Origin: Poseidonibacter antarcticus
Lineage (GTDB): Bacteria > Campylobacterota > Campylobacteria > Campylobacterales > Arcobacteraceae
DNA: 64,000 nucleotides
NCBI RefSeq assembly: GCF_003667345.1
Contig: NZ_RCWF01000006.1
Span: 62,001 to 126,000 of the forward strand
Direction of reading: 5' to 3'
Both the position numbers and the translations under genes were made by a program. The notes beneath the pieces were generated by a model, which was not told the DNA's origin, did not search any database, and was given only the letters and a program-made list of their open reading frames with translations. Shown here in pieces: positions 34,628 through 47,047 of this stretch; within the stretch, counting starts at the first letter, position 1; each line of letters begins with the position of its first letter.

Positions 34628-34642
34628 TGATAATAATTATCA
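34628..34642 (+). promoter_or_regulatory. Perfect 7-1-7 Fur box upstream of the imelysin operon
   Basis: TGATAAT-A-ATTATCA is an exact 7-1-7 inverted repeat matching the classical Fur heptamer model. A further TGATAAT half-site at 34686-34692 overlaps the likely -10 of the operon (ATG at 34718). This predicts iron-dependent repression. Confidence 0.8.
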
Positions 34643-34717
34643 ATTTAATATTCTTTTAAGTCTTTTTTTGTTTTAATTTCATTAATGATAATTGATATTA
34701 AAATTAAAAGGAACATA

Positions 34718-36076
34718 ATGTTAAATAAAACAAAATTTTTTGCAGCTTCTTTATCTATTGCAGCAGCAATAGCTCTTACTGGTTGTTCATCAACAAATGC
34801 AAATGAGACAATGAGTAAAATAGAGACTGTTAAAGAAAAAGGGATTTTAAGTGCATATGCAAATTTAGCATTAGCTAATTATACAGATGCATTAAATGAT
34901 GCAATAGTTTTAGAAAAAGCCATAAATGTATTTGCTTCCAATCCAACTACTACAAATTTTGCTTATGCTAAAAAAGCATGGTTGATTTCTAGAGAATCTT
35001 ATGGTCAAACAGAAATTTTAAGACTTGCAAATGGTCCTATTGATGCAGAAGAAGGTTGGGTTGCTAATACTTATGGTTCTTTAGAAGGTCAACTTAATGC
35101 TTGGCCATTAGATGAAAATATGATTGATTATACAATTGATGCAAATGGAGCTAAAACTTCAGGAAATATTATTGATACAATTGGTTCATTTAATCCAGGT
35201 GGAGAAGATGCACAAACTGTAAATGTTGAAACAATTACTGAAGATTCATTAACTGCTTTAAATGAAAATGGTGGTGATGCAAATGTATCTACAGGATATC
35301 ATGCAATTGAATTTTTATTATGGGGACAAGATCAAGATTATTCTAACTTCTTAAAAGATTCTGTAACTCCTGGTGCTTTAACAGCAGGACAAAGACCATT
35401 AAGTGACTTTACAACTGCTAAAAATGCAGATAGAAGATTAGCTTATTTAAAAGCATCTGCATCTAAAATTGTTAATGATTTAAAAACAGTTAAAAGTGCA
35501 TGGGAAAAAGATATAAATGGTAATACTGGTTTATATCAAGCTGCATTACAAGGTAAATTAACAGATGCCAATGCTTCAAAAAATATTGATTCAAAAGAAG
35601 CTTTAAAACAAATTATTGCAGGTATGGGTGTATTTATGAAATCAGAATTAGCAAATGAAAGAATTGCTGTTGCTGTACTAACTCCAAGTGAAGAAGATGA
35701 GCATTCTTGTTTTTCTGATAATACGCATAGAGATATCTTAAATAACTATTTAGGATTTAAAAATGTACTAACTTCAACTTATAAAGGTCAAAAATTTGGT
35801 GCATCTTTATTAGATAGTGTTGATGTAGATACTAAAGCAAATATCTCTTCTTTAATGAAATCTATTGAAGAAAAAATCAATAGTATTGATGAAATTGCAA
35901 AAACAAAAGAACACTTTGATTATCAAATTAAACCTACAAGTCCTCAATCAAAAGTTATTGTAAAACTTAAAAATGAGATGAGAAAACTAGGTGATGAAAT
36001 GGTAAATGTTGCAAAAGCAAATGGTATTGATTTAACTAGTGATGATGTAACTGATGCTGAAGAAACTCAAATTTAA
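34718..36076 (+). CDS. Imelysin-family (M75-like) iron-regulated lipoprotein
   Basis: A 452-residue lipoprotein (signal ending LTGC, Cys23) of the imelysin family, which includes IrpA/IcmP-type periplasmic iron-acquisition proteins. The family motif GxHxxE is present as GYHAIE (Gly193, His195, Glu198) followed by FLLWGQDQDYS, and a four-helix-bundle repeat region follows. The frame extends up to 34685, but the ATG at 34718 has AAAAGGA before it and starts the lipoprotein signal. It heads a five-gene operon behind a Fur box; the next gene starts inside its last 23 bases. The ligand, possibly iron or haem, is not determined. Confidence 0.88.
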   Translation: MLNKTKFFAASLSIAAAIALTGCSSTNANETMSKIETVKEKGILSAYANLALANYTDALNDAIVLEKAINVFASNPTTTNFAYAKKAWLISRESYGQTEILRLANGPIDAEEGWVANTYGSLEGQLNAWPLDENMIDYTIDANGAKTSGNIIDTIGSFNPGGEDAQTVNVETITEDSLTALNENGGDANVSTGYHAIEFLLWGQDQDYSNFLKDSVTPGALTAGQRPLSDFTTAKNADRRLAYLKASASKIVNDLKTVKSAWEKDINGNTGLYQAALQGKLTDANASKNIDSKEALKQIIAGMGVFMKSELANERIAVAVLTPSEEDEHSCFSDNTHRDILNNYLGFKNVLTSTYKGQKFGASLLDSVDVDTKANISSLMKSIEEKINSIDEIAKTKEHFDYQIKPTSPQSKVIVKLKNEMRKLGDEMVNVAKANGIDLTSDDVTDAEETQI

Positions 36077-37406
36077 TTCTTTCTTTTTAAAATTAATTTT
36101 GATAAAAAGCCTGGTAGTATTTTTTACTACTGGGCTTTTTGCGCTTAATATTCCTACTATAAAACCATTAGATGGAATGAGTGATGAACAGTATGATAAA
36201 TTTATTTTAGGAAGAAGTTTTTTTGTAATTCCTTGGGTTGAAGCTCCAAGTGCAACAAGTGCAAGAGATGGATTAGGTCCTTTATTTAATGCGAATACTT
36301 GTATCTCTTGTCATGCTGCAAATGGAAGAGGGACTTTATATAATAAAAATAAGAATACATCGCGTTCTTTAGTTGCAAGATTATCAATTCCTTCTAATGG
36401 TTCCAAAGAACATAAAAAATTACTATACAAAAATGGCTTTATACCCAATGAAGTTTATGGTACTCAAATATCAATAAATGGAATACATGGTGTTGATTAT
36501 GAAGCTAGAATAAATTTAGACTTTGAAGAAATAAAAGTTAAATTTCCAGATGGGGAAATTGATACAATATTAAAACCTAAGTATAAACTAATTAATCAAA
36601 ATTATGGAAATTTATCAAAAGATACAATAATCACATATAGAATAGCTCCTTCTTTACATGGCTTAGGCTTAATTGGAAAAATACCAAATGAAGAAATTTT
36701 GAAAAATGTTGATGAATTTGATAAAGATAATGATGGAATATCAGGAAAAGCTAATATAGTTTATTCTCCTAAAACTTTAAAATATGAATTAGGGAAATAT
36801 ACTTGGAAAGCTAGTTCACCTTCTGTATTAGAACAATCTGCCTCAGCTGCAGTTACAGATATGGGTTTAACTAGTTATCTTTTTAAAGAAGATAATTGTA
36901 CAAAATTTCAAGATGATTGTAATAATGCACCAAAAGCAAAAGATTCAGAAGATATAACACCAATAAGATTAGAAGCTATTACTTATTATTTAAAACACAC
37001 ACAAATTCATAAGCCTAAACAAACACAAGATTACAAAGAAGGCTTAGAAGTTTTTGAAAGTATTGGTTGTGTGAAATGTCATACAAACAATTTTAAAACA
37101 AAAAACAATAAAATCATTTCTCCTTACTCAGATTTTTTACTTCATGATATGGGTGAGGGGTTAGATGATGGAAGAAGTGAATTTTCTGCAAGTTCAAGTG
37201 AATGGAGAACAGCACCTTTATGGGGACTTGCATTACATGAAAAGATAAATAAGAAAAAACCAAGATTATTGCATGATGGAAGAGCTAGAAATTTCCAAGA
37301 AGCAATTCTTTGGCATGGTGGGGAAGCTAGTAAAGTTAAAGAAAACTATATGAACTTATCTAAACAAACAAGAGAAAAATTACTTAATTTTTTAGGAAAT
37401 ATTTAA
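36054..37406 (+). CDS. Di-haem oxidoreductase, DHOR/DUF1111 family (putative peroxidase)
   Basis: A 450-residue secreted c-type cytochrome (signal or anchor about 11-31) with two CxxCH haem sites, Cys83-His87 (CISCHAANGRG) and Cys339-His343 (CVKCHTNN). Between them is a DKDNDGISG calcium-type loop, and the C-terminus carries WGLALHEK and LHDGRARNFQEAILWHGGEA, typical of the family often labelled thiol oxidoreductase. In Pseudomonas and Vibrio such genes lie beside imelysins (recalled). It overlaps the upstream imelysin by 23 bases and abuts the next gene (TAATG). Confidence 0.88.
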   Translation: MLKKLKFNSFFLKLILIKSLVVFFTTGLFALNIPTIKPLDGMSDEQYDKFILGRSFFVIPWVEAPSATSARDGLGPLFNANTCISCHAANGRGTLYNKNKNTSRSLVARLSIPSNGSKEHKKLLYKNGFIPNEVYGTQISINGIHGVDYEARINLDFEEIKVKFPDGEIDTILKPKYKLINQNYGNLSKDTIITYRIAPSLHGLGLIGKIPNEEILKNVDEFDKDNDGISGKANIVYSPKTLKYELGKYTWKASSPSVLEQSASAAVTDMGLTSYLFKEDNCTKFQDDCNNAPKAKDSEDITPIRLEAITYYLKHTQIHKPKQTQDYKEGLEVFESIGCVKCHTNNFKTKNNKIISPYSDFLLHDMGEGLDDGRSEFSASSSEWRTAPLWGLALHEKINKKKPRLLHDGRARNFQEAILWHGGEASKVKENYMNLSKQTREKLLNFLGNI

Positions 37407-38350
37407 TGAAAAAAATTTTATTTATGATGATGATTTTAGTATCAACAGTTTTTGCAGATCAAACTGCATTAAATTCAATATTAAAAAATATATCAATACC
37501 AAATGTTGATAAAACAATAAAAAATGCAAATGTGTTAAAAGAAAATTTAAATGAGCAAAATTTTAAAAAATTTCTTAGTTCATGGAAAAAAGTTGAGGCA
37601 TTATATTTTGCAGGAGAAATAGATAATGACTATCTTGATACTCCTAGATATATTGATGTGTTTCATAATTTGAAAGAAGATTTAAAAGAACAAATGCAAA
37701 GAGTTATTGCTTCAAAAGATGAGCCAAATATAGCACTTTTTAAAAATTCATTTAAAACAATTAATGCATTAGAGTATGTATTATTTAATGATGATAAAAT
37801 TACTAAAAGAGAAAAGCTTTTAAGTCTAGCAATTCTTGATTCTATTGTTTCTCATTTAAATGATATTAAAGGTGTTTATACACAATATTTAAGCTCAAAA
37901 CCAAAAAGTGAAACTTGGGAAAATGCAATGATTATTAATAGTTTAATTGCAAGTACTTATAGATTAAAAGAATGGAGAATAGGAGATCCTAGTGGGAATT
38001 CTTCAAAATACAAAGACAATGCTGATAATAAAAGAGCTGAGTATTTTTTAAGTAAAAGTTCATTCTTAGCTATAAAATCAATTTTAGATGCACATGAAGA
38101 GATTATGGGTGAGAGTAAATATCTTAACTTTGGGAAAATGGCAGTACAATCAGGTGCAAAAGCTGAAGTAGCAGAAGTTGAAAATGCAATTCATAATAGT
38201 TTAAATGAGTTAAAAAAACTTAAAAATGATGATTTCTCAAATGCAAAAGATTTATATGAAGATGTAAAGTCATTACATAATGCATATTATTTATCACTAA
38301 TTGAACAACTAGCAATTACCGCAAAAATTTTAGATGCAGATGGTGACTAA
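37406..38350 (+). CDS. Second imelysin-family periplasmic protein
   Basis: A 314-residue protein with a cleavable signal (MKKILFMMMILVSTVFA) and no lipobox, so probably soluble in the periplasm. Imelysin features include WKKVEALYFAG, DTPRYIDVFH and WENAMIINSLIAS. The HxxE motif is altered: the aligned site reads NALEYVLF (Asn120, Glu123), so the His is lost. This suggests a structural or altered-binding partner to the first imelysin. The start overlaps the upstream stop by one base. Confidence 0.85.
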   Translation: MKKILFMMMILVSTVFADQTALNSILKNISIPNVDKTIKNANVLKENLNEQNFKKFLSSWKKVEALYFAGEIDNDYLDTPRYIDVFHNLKEDLKEQMQRVIASKDEPNIALFKNSFKTINALEYVLFNDDKITKREKLLSLAILDSIVSHLNDIKGVYTQYLSSKPKSETWENAMIINSLIASTYRLKEWRIGDPSGNSSKYKDNADNKRAEYFLSKSSFLAIKSILDAHEEIMGESKYLNFGKMAVQSGAKAEVAEVENAIHNSLNELKKLKNDDFSNAKDLYEDVKSLHNAYYLSLIEQLAITAKILDADGD

Positions 38351-38352
38351 GA

Positions 38353-39276
38353 TTGAATGATTTTTTTGCATTAGAGTATTTAATAAACCCAAATAAGAGA
38401 ATTTTTTGGGTTTATATACTCTCTTCAATTTTAATTACAATAATATATTTTTATTTTAATTCAAGAAGTAAAAAAGTAGTACTAAGTTCTAAACTTTGGT
38501 TACATCCTAGTGCTAAACTTGATTATTATTACTTTTTTATTTCATATTTTGTAAAAGTATTTATGTTGATTCCTATTGTAGTATCTGCAAAAACAATTGC
38601 TTTTTTCGTTAATAAACATTTATATTTACAATTTGATTATTATGAAAATACTTTTTTTTCTTATGAAGTTGTAATTGTGATGTATACCTTATCACTTTTT
38701 TTAATAAGTGATTTTTCAAGATATTGGCTTCATAGATTTTTACATAAAATTCCTTTTCTTTGGGAATTCCACAAAGTACATCACAGTGCAAAAGTTTTAA
38801 CACCAATTACTTTTTATAGAGTTCATCCTATTGAAAATCTTCTTTATGGAATAAGATATTCATTAAGTATTGGTTTTGTAACTGGTATATTTATATACTT
38901 TTTTGGTGCAATGATTGATATTTATTCTGTTTTAGGAGTAAATATTATTGTTTTTGTTTTCTCTATTTTAGGAGCTAATTTAAGACATTCACATGTTCAA
39001 GTATCTTTTGGAGAAAAAATAGAAAAATGGTTCATTTCACCAAAACAACATCAAATTCATCATAGTCGTAGGCATTTTAATAAAAATTATGGAGGGACAT
39101 TAGCCATTTGGGATAGATTATTTGGTAGTTTAAGCCTTTCAAAAGAAGTAAAAATATTAAAATTTGGTTTAAGAAAGAATCAAATGAATGATTATCTAAG
39201 CGTTTTTGACTTGTTAATCAAGCCATTTAAACTTTTGATATTAAATAAAATATTAAAAAAAAGGAAATTAAAATGA
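38353..39276 (+). CDS. Fatty-acid hydroxylase/sterol desaturase superfamily membrane protein
   Basis: A 307-residue di-iron membrane oxygenase-like protein with four or so membrane segments (about 17-33, 54-77, 96-113, 163-205). The histidine clusters are HRFLH, HKVHH and HQIHHSRRH, which give the HxxxH, HxxHH and HxxHH pattern of the superfamily. The start is TTG, two bases after the previous stop. The lipid or other substrate is unknown; being inside a Fur-boxed operon of periplasmic haem and imelysin proteins is unusual. Its last codons overlap the next gene by four bases. Confidence 0.85.
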   Translation: MNDFFALEYLINPNKRIFWVYILSSILITIIYFYFNSRSKKVVLSSKLWLHPSAKLDYYYFFISYFVKVFMLIPIVVSAKTIAFFVNKHLYLQFDYYENTFFSYEVVIVMYTLSLFLISDFSRYWLHRFLHKIPFLWEFHKVHHSAKVLTPITFYRVHPIENLLYGIRYSLSIGFVTGIFIYFFGAMIDIYSVLGVNIIVFVFSILGANLRHSHVQVSFGEKIEKWFISPKQHQIHHSRRHFNKNYGGTLAIWDRLFGSLSLSKEVKILKFGLRKNQMNDYLSVFDLLIKPFKLLILNKILKKRKLK

Positions 39277-40442
39277 ATAATTTTAAATCAACATTATTAA
39301 GTGCATTTGCACTTTTTTCTGTTTTATTATTTACAGCTTGTTCAAATGATAAAGTATCAAAAGCAGAACTAATACAAAAACAGCAAGAAAAGGAAAACTT
39401 AGGTCAAGTTCTATTTTTTGATGTAAATCTTTCAAAGAATAGAACTCAATCTTGTGCAACTTGTCATAATCCTGATACTGGTTTTGTAGATAATAGAAAC
39501 AATGGTGTAAATAGTATGGTATCACTAGGTGATGATAATATATCTCTTGGTGATAGATCAGCCCCAACGGCTTCTTATGCAATGTTTTCTCCAAAGTTTC
39601 ATTATGATATGAAAAAGAAAAAATACATTGGTGGACAGTTTTGGGATGGTAGAGAAGATGATTTAGCAGGACAAGCAGGTGGACCACCATTGAATCCTAT
39701 TGAAATGGGTATGAAAGACAAAAAAGAAGTAACAAGTAGATTACAAGAAAATCCATATTATGTTCAAAGTTTTAAAGATATTTATGGTGATGATATTTGG
39801 GAAAATGATAATTTAGCATTTAAAGCAATGACAGAAGTAATTGCAGCTTTTGAGCGAACAGAAGTATTTGCACCTTTTGATTCTAAATATGATAGATATT
39901 TAAAAGGCGAATATGATTTAACACCTTTAGAAGATTTAGGTAAGTCGATTTTCTTCTCAAATAATAATAACTCTTGTTCTACTTGTCATGTACTAAAAGG
40001 TGAAGATAAATTAGGTGAAACATTTACAAATTATGAATATCATAATATTGGAGTGCCTATAAATGAAGAATTAAGAGCTAAAAACGGTGTTACAGTTATT
40101 GATGGTGGTTTATTAAATAATCCAAAAGTTACAGATGTAAAAGAAAAAGGAAAATATAAAGTTCCAACTTTAAGAAATGTAGCTGTAACTGCTCCTTATA
40201 TGCATAATGGAGTATTTAAAGATTTAAAAACAGTTATGGAATTTTATGATAAATACAATGATGTAAATAGAAAAATAAATCCTGAAACAAATAAACCTTG
40301 GCGTGAACCTGAAGTAAAAGAAACAGTATCACTAGAAGAACTAAGATCAAAAAGACAAAGTGATAGAAAAATAGAAGCTTTAGTTGCATTTATGAAAATT
40401 CTAACTGATAAAAAGTATGAACATCTAATAAAAGAAGATTAA
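39273..40442 (+). CDS. Di-haem cytochrome c peroxidase (MauG/CcpA family) lipoprotein
   Basis: Reduces hydrogen peroxide in the periplasm with electrons from cytochromes. The 389 residues have a lipoprotein signal (LLFTAC, Cys23) and two haem sites, Cys61-His65 (CATCHNPDTGF) and Cys235-His239 (CSTCHVLKGE). Family motifs RSAPTASYA and FWDGREDDLAGQA are present, as is a C-terminal PTLRNVAVTAPYMHNGVF. Membrane anchoring is unlike the soluble Campylobacter enzymes. It closes the Fur-box operon, overlapping the desaturase-like gene (ATGA). Confidence 0.93.
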   Translation: MNNFKSTLLSAFALFSVLLFTACSNDKVSKAELIQKQQEKENLGQVLFFDVNLSKNRTQSCATCHNPDTGFVDNRNNGVNSMVSLGDDNISLGDRSAPTASYAMFSPKFHYDMKKKKYIGGQFWDGREDDLAGQAGGPPLNPIEMGMKDKKEVTSRLQENPYYVQSFKDIYGDDIWENDNLAFKAMTEVIAAFERTEVFAPFDSKYDRYLKGEYDLTPLEDLGKSIFFSNNNNSCSTCHVLKGEDKLGETFTNYEYHNIGVPINEELRAKNGVTVIDGGLLNNPKVTDVKEKGKYKVPTLRNVAVTAPYMHNGVFKDLKTVMEFYDKYNDVNRKINPETNKPWREPEVKETVSLEELRSKRQSDRKIEALVAFMKILTDKKYEHLIKED

Positions 40443-40443
40443 T

Positions 40444-40473
40444 AAGTAAAGAAGATAAAAATCTTCTTTACTT
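40444..40473 (+). terminator. Terminator of the imelysin-peroxidase operon
   Basis: AAGTAAAGAAGAT (40444-40456) pairs perfectly with ATCTTCTTTACTT (40461-40473) around an AAAA loop. It begins at the stop codon of the peroxidase gene. Confidence 0.82.
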
Positions 40474-40622: not shown

Positions 40623-41327
40623 ATGGCAAAAAGAGTATTAATAACGGGTGGAAATAGAGGAATTGGTTTATCAGTTTCTCAAGCAATGCTAGATCTTGAT
40701 TATGAAATTATTGTAGTAGCAAGAGAATTCAATGGTTTTGCCTTAGGTGGACTTCCTAGTGTTTTTGAGTATGAATATGATTTATCAAATATTGATGGTT
40801 TACAAAAATTAATAGAAAAAATAGGTCATGTTGATATTTTAATTAATAATGCTGGATTTATGCAACCTAAATATTCATATGATAATTACCCAAAAGATGC
40901 AAAAGAAAATATTATGAATGTTGACTTATATGCACCTGTAGAATTAATGAATTTAGTATCAAAAAGTATGAAAAAACAAGGTTCTGGTAAAATTGTAAAT
41001 GTTGCATCAATTGCTGGACAAATAGGACATCCTGATGTTTGGTATGGAATAGCAAAAGCTGGTTTAATTAATGCTACGAAAATATATGGTAAATTATTAG
41101 GTTCTCATGGTATTACAGTTAATTGTGTAACTCCAAGTCCAACTGAAACAGATATGCAATCATCTAATTCAGAAGAGCGAAAAAAAGAGTTTTTAAAAAC
41201 TGTTTCAACAAAAAGATTTGCACAACCAGATGAGGTAGCAAAAGCTATAGTTTGGCTAGCAACTGATTGTCCTGATTATATAAATGGAACTACATTAGAT
41301 ATTAATGACTGTTCATATCCTAGATAA
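40623..41327 (+). CDS. Short-chain dehydrogenase/reductase
   Basis: A 234-residue NAD(P)-dependent SDR. The nucleotide motif is GGNRGIG (9-15), the NNAG motif is at 75-78, and the catalytic set is Ser129, Tyr141 and Lys145 (YGIAK). The closing segment WLATDCPDYINGTTLDINDC is typical of FabG-like enzymes. The substrate is unknown. It is a single gene with AAAGGAAA as ribosome site. Confidence 0.9.
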   Translation: MAKRVLITGGNRGIGLSVSQAMLDLDYEIIVVAREFNGFALGGLPSVFEYEYDLSNIDGLQKLIEKIGHVDILINNAGFMQPKYSYDNYPKDAKENIMNVDLYAPVELMNLVSKSMKKQGSGKIVNVASIAGQIGHPDVWYGIAKAGLINATKIYGKLLGSHGITVNCVTPSPTETDMQSSNSEERKKEFLKTVSTKRFAQPDEVAKAIVWLATDCPDYINGTTLDINDCSYPR

Positions 41328-45623: not shown

Positions 45624-45998
45624 TTATCCTTTATTTTTTAAACATTTAGGGCAAATACCCTTTATAATAATATTATCTACTTGATAATTTGCAAGATCAA
45701 AATCAAGTTTTTCATGTATACATTCTATTGCTGAACAGCTAGTACAAATAAAGTGAGAATGCATAGTTTTTTGAATCTCAAAATATCTTTTTTTATCATT
45801 TGATTCAAAAGAATTTATTATATTCTCTTCTTCGAACTTTGTTATATTTCTATAAAAAGTTGCTTTATCCATTGAAAGTTTATCTTTTATATCTTCATAA
45901 GACAAAGGTTTATCTGAATTAATTAGTATTTCAAGTATAACTTTTCTCGCACTAGTTAATTTTATATTTTTTTTATTCGTTAATTCTTCTATGTTCAT
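45624..45998 (-). CDS. Fur-family metalloregulator (Zur-like)
   Basis: A 124-residue winged-helix regulator of the Fur family: DNA-binding half (about 1-80, with TSARKVILEILINSDKPLSYEDI), then a metal domain with HSHFICTSCSAIECIH and a C-terminal CPKC pair that would form a structural zinc site. It is divergent from znuA and a NicO-type permease with two palindromes between, so zinc or nickel is the likely signal. It is distinct from an iron Fur, which is not in the window. First gene of a two-gene transcript with nhaA. Confidence 0.85.
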   Translation of the reverse strand: MNIEELTNKKNIKLTSARKVILEILINSDKPLSYEDIKDKLSMDKATFYRNITKFEEENIINSFESNDKKRYFEIQKTMHSHFICTSCSAIECIHEKLDFDLANYQVDNIIIKGICPKCLKNKG

Positions 45999-46034
45999 AT
46001 AATATTATATCTTTTTTTGTTTAAAGTTCTTTTA

Positions 46035-46045
46035 CAACTAAGTTG
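46035..46045. promoter_or_regulatory. Putative metalloregulator operator, copy 1
   Basis: CAACT-A-AGTTG is a 5-1-5 palindrome in the 122-base gap between the Fur-family gene and znuA. The same core recurs 46 bases downstream with a longer arm. Probable binding site of the divergent regulator; not proven. Confidence 0.55.
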
Positions 46046-46079
46046 CATTAAAGAAAATATTCATTAAAATTCAGATAAA

Positions 46080-46092
46080 GCAACTAAGTTGC
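46080..46092. promoter_or_regulatory. Putative metalloregulator operator, copy 2
   Basis: GCAACT-A-AGTTGC is a perfect 6-1-6 palindrome, 28 bases before the znuA ATG. With copy 1 it forms a pair of identical CAACTAAGTTGCA direct copies, placed to control both divergent transcripts. Confidence 0.6.
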
Positions 46093-46120
46093 AAATTTTA
46101 AAAAAAAGATTAGGGAAAAA

Positions 46121-47047
46121 ATGAATAAGTTAATATTAGTAGTTTTAATGATGTTTACATCATTATATGCAGTGAAAAAAGATGTAACGGTAAGTATTGT
46201 TCCTCAAAAATATTTTGTAGAAAAAATAGCTGGGGATAAAATAAATGTAAATGTAATGGTTAAAGAAGGTTTCTCACCTGCTACATATGAGCCAAAAACT
46301 TCACAAATGAAGAAATTATCAAATTCAAGTATTTATTTTGCAATTGGTGTACCTTTTGAGCATATTTGGCTTGATAAATTTAAGAATGCAAATAAAAATA
46401 TGCTAATTGTTCACACAGATGATGGAATTGAGAAACTTAAAATGTTAAAACATTCACATCATGAAGAAGAACATCACGATGATGAAGCTCACGATGATCA
46501 CGAAGGACATGAGCATGAAGCATCTCATGAAGCATCTCATGAAGGACATAATCATGAAGACGGATTAGATCCACATATTTGGAATGACCCAATTTTAGTA
46601 AAAAAACAAGCTACAAATATTTATCAAGCTTTAATAAAAATTGATAATGAAAATAGTGCATTTTATAAAACAAACTATGAAAACTTTTTAAAAGAATTAG
46701 ATATTTTAGATGAAAAAATTTCAAAAATATTAAAACCTTATGAACATAAAGCTTTTATGGTATTTCATCCATCTTGGGGATATTTTGCAAAAAGATATTC
46801 TTTAGAACAAGTTGCTATTGAATCAGAAGGGAAAGAACCTAAACCAAAAGAATTAGTAGAATTAATCAAAGATGCTGCTGAACATAAAGTAAAAATAGTA
46901 TTTGTAGCTCCTCAATTTTCACAAAAAAGTGCAAAGATTATAGCTGATAATATAAAAGGAAATGTTCTTATTATTGACCCATTAGTTGCTAATTGGGATA
47001 CAAATCTTATATATACTGCTGAAAAAATTGCTAATACTTATAAGTAG
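46121..47047 (+). CDS. znuA: ZnuA-like zinc ABC transporter substrate-binding protein
   Basis: Periplasmic metal-binding protein of cluster A-I. The 308 residues have a signal peptide (MNKLILVVLMMFTSLYA), the family start VTVSIVPQKYFVEKIAG, a histidine/acid-rich loop (about 107-145) with HHEEEHHDDEAH and HEGHEHEASHEASHEG, and then DGLDPHIWNDP, FHPSWGYFAKRY and LIIDPLVANW. The loop marks a zinc rather than manganese protein. No permease or ATPase genes (znuB, znuC) follow; the next gene, starting directly after the stop, is a NicO-type permease. Confidence 0.9.
   Translation: MNKLILVVLMMFTSLYAVKKDVTVSIVPQKYFVEKIAGDKINVNVMVKEGFSPATYEPKTSQMKKLSNSSIYFAIGVPFEHIWLDKFKNANKNMLIVHTDDGIEKLKMLKHSHHEEEHHDDEAHDDHEGHEHEASHEASHEGHNHEDGLDPHIWNDPILVKKQATNIYQALIKIDNENSAFYKTNYENFLKELDILDEKISKILKPYEHKAFMVFHPSWGYFAKRYSLEQVAIESEGKEPKPKELVELIKDAAEHKVKIVFVAPQFSQKSAKIIADNIKGNVLIIDPLVANWDTNLIYTAEKIANTYK

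Follow-up and report, generated by a model that had tools for sequence, protein, structure and literature searches.

The 64,000-nucleotide stretch of Poseidonibacter antarcticus DNA analysed here, referred to as the window, contains a tightly coupled five-gene operon that encodes an imelysin, a di-haem oxidoreductase (DHOR), a second imelysin, a membrane protein of the FA_hydroxylase family (hereafter FAH) and a di-haem enzyme of the MauG type. This operon is a widely conserved variant form of the known imelysin-DHOR-imelysin iron operon, distinguished by FAH and the MauG-type enzyme as unexpected redox partners, and its role in iron acquisition is well supported by the context in which the genes are found. 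We lean towards the view that it forms a Fur-controlled module of the periplasm and membrane, in which oxidation chemistry in the periplasm would prepare iron, or the ligand of iron, for import.

All five open reading frames were confirmed on the plus strand (Table 1), and the Pfam score of each protein exceeds its gathering cut-off. The stop of imelysin 1 (36076) lies beyond the DHOR ATG (36054), which gives a 23-base overlap; DHOR and imelysin 2 share one base in a TAATG junction at 37406; imelysin 2 and FAH are separated by a 2-base gap (38350/38353), and FAH meets the MauG-type gene in an ATGA-type 4-base overlap at 39273. The coordinates read from the sequence agree with the first-pass annotation, which had described five genes joined by overlaps or a 2-base gap and had attributed the imelysins and DHOR to a type of iron operon. 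The latter attribution is borne out as well, as both imelysin classes and a DHOR with two CxxCH motifs are present by Pfam and motif. Imelysin 1 matches the solved ICMP structure 7xrx (E 7e-51) and carries the GxHxxE motif as GYHAIE, the motif being kept in 39 of 39 relatives and missing in 39 of 40 relatives of imelysin 2. The two CxxCH motifs occur in 40 of 40 DHOR relatives, and the AF2 model of DHOR (pLDDT 84) has a weak likeness to the hydrazine synthase C chain (E 1e-4). A sequence search of solved structures returned no match for FAH, DHOR or imelysin 2.

The same succession of an ICMP-type imelysin, DHOR and a GxxxxE imelysin is found in the PA4370-PA4373 and the Leptospira lruB operons. 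The association of imelysins with DUF1111/DHOR proteins, and the PA4370-73 operon itself, have already been described together with their iron/Fur regulation (PMC3143127). The Leptospira lruB operon is likewise treated in two reports (PMC7567364; PMC13066512), one of which records induction of the core operon by the iron chelator dipyridyl (PMC13066512). The window operon differs from the PA4370-PA4373 type in having FAH and the MauG-type enzyme where DUF1513 stands in the latter, and none of its five proteins matched DUF1513 in Pfam. DUF1513, which is present at locus L143 and annotated at L152, L155 and L156, is the last gene in the alphaproteobacterial form of the operon and also in that of Pseudomonas; as it is missing in the Leptospira form, it is not essential to this operon type. 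A further likeness is to EfeUOB, where an imelysin domain and a haem enzyme also belong to one iron operon; moreover, FTR1, of the EfeU family, lies beside the gene set in Pasteurellaceae. Unlike EfeUOB, the window operon has neither a cupredoxin-imelysin fusion nor an EfeU gene, as judged by Pfam, and its haem enzymes are DHOR and the MauG-type protein.

Conservation of the complete set was evident at several levels. Across 60 relatives, FAH and imelysin 2 shared both genome and location, with the exception of four distant FAH-like matches (29-33% identity) that have no imelysin neighbours, and the five-gene order held at essentially every locus uncut by a contig end, including 20 or more Arcobacteraceae loci. 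Within the Campylobacterota, FAH was present in 20 of 298 genomes, all 20 with both imelysins at the same place; 14 of the 278 genomes without FAH match an imelysin, in most cases once, and the two imelysin pieces seen in each of G238 and G305 resemble one broken gene. When 84,980 species genomes were scanned, this arrangement was also seen in bins or strains labelled as Sulfurospirillum, Sulfurovum, Pasteurellaceae (Bisgaardia, Spirabiliibacterium), Moraxella macacae, Alcaligenaceae (Pelistega, Advenella), Cellvibrionales and thiotrophic symbionts, several of these genomes being metagenome bins whose names may be wrong. The order therefore recurs in Arcobacteraceae as well as in Gamma- and Betaproteobacteria, and the possibility raised earlier that the desaturase-like gene might occur only in this strain, and not beside imelysins elsewhere, does not hold for the Campylobacterota or for the other groups. 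Its recurrence in several bacterial groups shows that this combination of genes is real, and makes it testable. At two loci an extra gene lies between FAH and the MauG-type gene (L085:9009-10379; L091:8747-10195), and the one in L085 matches Porin_O_P.

FAH had been described in the first-pass annotation as a desaturase-family protein without an obvious reason to be in an iron operon. Pfam confirms the family (PF04116, 92.6 bits against a gathering score of 31, with the His-box pattern present), and the neighbourhoods of its relatives go part of the way to explaining its position. Among the 80 closest relatives, a set chosen by closeness to the window protein and not representative of the whole superfamily, whose more distant members lie elsewhere, 76 lie no more than 8 kb from an imelysin: 40 in the imelysin-DHOR-imelysin arrangement, 35 in a DUF4856-imelysin arrangement and one, L082, with imelysin 2 alone. 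The four exceptions comprise two loci at contig ends (L079, L100), one with none of these genes (L119), and one (L115) in which DUF4856 and FAH are followed by an importer that we call FbpABC-like, a label given from family, sequence and context. The second operon type, found in Alteromonadales, Marinobacter and relatives, consists of a DUF4856 lipoprotein, an imelysin, a TonB-dependent receptor and FAH (40-47% identity), and its imelysin is akin to imelysin 2 in having no motif histidine (GLDALEYLLF compared with GYHAIEFLLW). Because 76 of the 80 nearest relatives lie near an imelysin, in two operon types, FAH is a regular imelysin partner, and the view that it truly belongs in the operon, as a dedicated component, is supported. 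FAH even adjoins an FbpABC-like importer where no imelysin is present. The DUF4856-imelysin-TonB receptor-FAH operon was seen at loci L093-L133, in many marine Gammaproteobacteria, and no description of it was found in the open-access literature searched. The idea that DUF4856 is a hidden imelysin was not supported, as comparison with the ICMP-type profile aligned signal peptides only. Plasmid-borne FAH-like proteins (25-38% identity) had unrelated neighbourhoods in the two cases examined.

Ten histidines of FAH are invariant in a 50-sequence alignment (H127, H131, H140, H143, H144, H158, H212, H233, H236 and H237), and by analogy with its superfamily the protein is expected to bind two irons. 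In its AF2 model (pLDDT 90), the best solved-structure neighbour was Scs7p, with a Z of 5.4 that compares with 3.4 for unrelated rows and lies below 8, and a Foldseek comparison of the model with the PDB gave no significant match. FAH thus shares with the fatty acid hydroxylase superfamily (Scs7p, OlsE) the domain, the ten invariant histidines and probably the fold, but it belongs to a subfamily tied to imelysins and cannot be called OlsE, with 61.8 of the 475 bits that the NCBIfam model NF052566 demands.

The last gene had been annotated as a lipid-anchored peroxidase. A di-haem enzyme with a lipoprotein-like N-terminus is indeed encoded, but its tyrosine ligand makes it MauG-type and not a classical peroxidase. 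MauG is known mainly for building the cofactor of another enzyme, and its axial ligand Tyr294 sets it apart from cytochrome c peroxidases (CCPs). The window protein aligns over its full length with Paracoccus MauG (E ~1e-107, identity about 47-50%), and Tyr294 is kept in 38 of 38 operon proteins, compared with Met in eight of eight other CCPs of these genomes; classical CCP was rejected as an identity on this ground. Both haem sites (two CxxCH), Gln103, Pro107 and Glu113 of MauG are also kept, the last three being residues that most CCPs share. Differences from MauG were also clear. The position of Trp199, which according to established work on MauG serves electron transfer to the methylamine dehydrogenase precursor (preMADH), is N, T, V or L in 38 of 38 operon proteins, and Trp was found there only in mau-cluster proteins; Trp93 is kept in 24 of 38. 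The enzyme sits in an iron-type operon, and none of its operon neighbours is a mau gene; a search for mauA in its own genome gave no match, but the control likewise matched nowhere, so that this result carries little weight. Since the curated models of MauG (TIGR03791, 98.9 of 443.85 bits) and MbnH (TIGR04039, 156 of 362.85 bits) are both unsatisfied, the protein is named MauG-type and neither MauG nor MbnH. Phylogenetic analysis united the operon proteins with MauG and two Azospirillum proteins in a single group that excludes the CCPs (support 88/89); the tree was drawn open, with an outgroup on long branches, and fixes neither the order inside the MauG group nor an origin of MauG from the iron type. 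In Azospirillum brasilense, a MauG-like gene lies upstream of imelysin-DHOR-imelysin-DUF1513.

A multicopper oxidase replaces the MauG-type enzyme in two lineages. In A. thermophilum, a multicopper oxidase lies inside the imelysin-DHOR-imelysin-DUF1513 operon, and in two vesicomyid symbionts (L076, L077) a CueO-like multicopper oxidase stands 3' of FAH, at the place of the MauG-type gene. Two separate swaps suggest that the MauG-type enzyme and the multicopper oxidase fill a common oxidase role, and the two seem exchangeable. Both clam symbionts keep imelysin-DHOR-imelysin-FAH in reduced genomes of 1.0 and 1.5 Mb.

Iron importers adjoin the set at several loci. L082 has an overlapping run of imelysin 2, FAH, the MauG-type gene, a solute-binding protein, a permease and an ATPase; in L071, FeoB is followed by an ABC importer; in L076 and L077, the ABC importer follows on from the multicopper oxidase, and in L059, L090 and L092 ABC genes lie directly upstream of the set. 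FTR1 is found just downstream, on the opposite strand, in L088, L090 and L092, the FeoB and FTR1 calls being firm by Pfam for L071, L088 and L090 and made by similarity for L092. Given one or two such loci per genome, chance placement of importer genes there should be rare.

Regarding regulation, the perfect 7-1-7 Fur-type box that the first-pass annotation had placed upstream of the operon is present (TGATAATAATTATCA); the window contains no other perfect match, and the 2.9-Mb genome as a whole contains one more. When the best box 5' of imelysin 1 was determined at 36 related loci, 0, 1 and 2 mismatches were found in 7, 8 and 10 loci, compared with 0.4%, 1.4% and 1.8% of random 360-bp stretches from the same loci; a box with at most two mismatches thus precedes 25 of 36 orthologous operons and occurs in less than 4% of random stretches. 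The argument rests on this positional conservation, because allowing one mismatch genome-wide gave 18 boxes against 11 for a control pattern, a mild enrichment only. Fur-family regulators are encoded in the genome, and one-mismatch boxes adjoin tonB-exbB-exbD and an ABC binding protein/permease pair. Judging from the sequence, the operon is probably switched on when iron is scarce, under putative Fur control. The other perfect box of the genome (G000:C5:134956-134970, L178) lies near recombinase/integrase-like genes and not by a known iron gene.

Taken as an iron-acquisition module, the operon may work as follows. Under low iron, Fur would release the operon, and the two imelysins would retain iron, as such or in a complex, on its entry into the periplasm, where the MauG-type enzyme (a multicopper oxidase in two other lineages) and DHOR might oxidise the iron itself, the ligand that it carries or a partner protein. 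From there it could be handed to an inner-membrane importer (FbpABC-like, FTR1 or FeoB), while FAH, in what is the most tentative step, would probably oxygenate a membrane-associated substrate tied to iron hand-over. Some points weigh against this proposal. By Pfam, the ABC binding proteins can be placed only in the solute-binding-protein family, and the NCBIfam iron models did not name them; the operon has no importer beside it in the window's own genome; and the substrates of the FAH superfamily are mostly lipids, from which no direct reason for iron chemistry follows.

In one alternative, FAH would be a lipid hydroxylase akin to OlsE or Scs7p, would remodel the envelope when iron runs short and would stand in the operon for co-regulation only. 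Its FA_hydroxylase domain, the best solved match to Scs7p and the weak match to OlsE are consistent with such a function, but the OlsE cut-off is far off, and FAH keeps its place next to imelysins and iron importers both across two operon architectures and in symbionts with reduced genomes. As this pattern fits a partner better than a passenger, we regard a pure lipid function as unlikely. It is also unlikely, in our opinion, that the operon serves to process an organic iron ligand (haem, siderophore or catecholate), which the MauG-type enzyme or multicopper oxidase would oxidise together with FAH to free the iron. The TonB receptor of the sister operon type and the CueO/laccase-type multicopper oxidase as a stand-in would agree with this, but the five-gene set itself has no TonB receptor and imelysin structures bound no haem in thermofluor tests (PMC3143127). 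Distinctly improbable, as we see it, is a bolder version of the iron-acquisition proposal, according to which FAH would itself be an inner-membrane iron handler and not a lipid enzyme: its ten-His di-iron site would take iron from imelysin 2 and either oxidise it or pass it on to the permease, the MauG-type enzyme or multicopper oxidase acting as the partner oxidase. On this view, MauG of methylamine metabolism would have branched off from an older oxidase of iron uptake. Finally, Tyr ligation in known MauG goes with protein oxidation and not with peroxide removal, which counts against seeing the haem enzymes as peroxidases. A peroxide-defence unit, in which DHOR and the MauG-type enzyme would guard the envelope and iron regulation would be secondary, is very unlikely given the MauG-type Tyr in place of the CcP-type Met and the ordinary CcPs encoded elsewhere in the same genomes, even though the Leptospira core genes are reported also to rise with H2O2 (PMC7567364).

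To our knowledge, no biochemical function has been assigned to imelysins despite their long-standing link to iron. A conserved set of partners, composed of a MauG-type oxidase, a membrane protein of a di-iron family and adjoining iron importers, makes their role directly testable. Moreover, in several bacterial groups the context of iron uptake now includes close relatives of MauG, an enzyme studied mostly in connection with methylamine dehydrogenase, and a family annotated merely as 'sterol desaturase' gains a partner context. No paper linking an imelysin to a desaturase/hydroxylase-family protein or to a MauG-type operon partner was found in the open-access literature searched, subscription papers being mostly outside the search; in the available portions of the two Leptospira papers that contain both 'imelysin' and 'MauG' (PMC7567364; PMC13066512), the gene named mauG belongs to another locus.

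Table 1. Features of the imelysin operon, in window coordinates.
Feature	Position	Strand	Remarks
Fur-type box TGATAATAATTATCA, perfect 7-1-7	34628..34642		starts 90 bases 5' of the imelysin 1 start codon (ATG, 34718)
Imelysin 1, ICMP/LruB-type lipoprotein, GxHxxE	34718..36076	+	Pfam Peptidase_M75 2e-61; 7xrx match; in-frame ATG also at 34685
DHOR, di-haem oxidoreductase, two CxxCH	36054..37406	+	Pfam PF06537 1e-64
Imelysin 2, IPPA/PA4372-type, without the GxHxxE histidine (GxxxxE)	37406..38350	+	Pfam Peptidase_M75 2e-20
FAH, FA_hydroxylase-superfamily (sterol-desaturase-like) integral membrane protein	38353..39276	+	Pfam PF04116 3.5e-26; TTG start
MauG-type di-haem enzyme, lipoprotein-like N-terminus, two CxxCH, Tyr294-equivalent	39273..40442	+	Pfam CCP_MauG 4e-48
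Hairpin, 13 bp, 3' of the last gene; possible terminator	40444..40473		folding z -4.9; weak U-tract on the plus strand

At the 3' end of the operon, where a single terminator had been proposed, a strong hairpin is present, but a terminator on the plus strand is only plausible because no clear U-tract follows the hairpin on that strand, and the terminator scan scored it on the minus strand only. An SDR-family gene (40623-41327) lies 3' of the operon in several Arcobacteraceae (L030, L040 and L044; further off in L028), though not in all, and is probably outside it. Elsewhere in the window (45624-47047), a Fur-family regulator gene on the minus strand adjoins a gene for a ZnuA-like, His-rich binding protein, a locus that probably represents zinc uptake with its own Zur.

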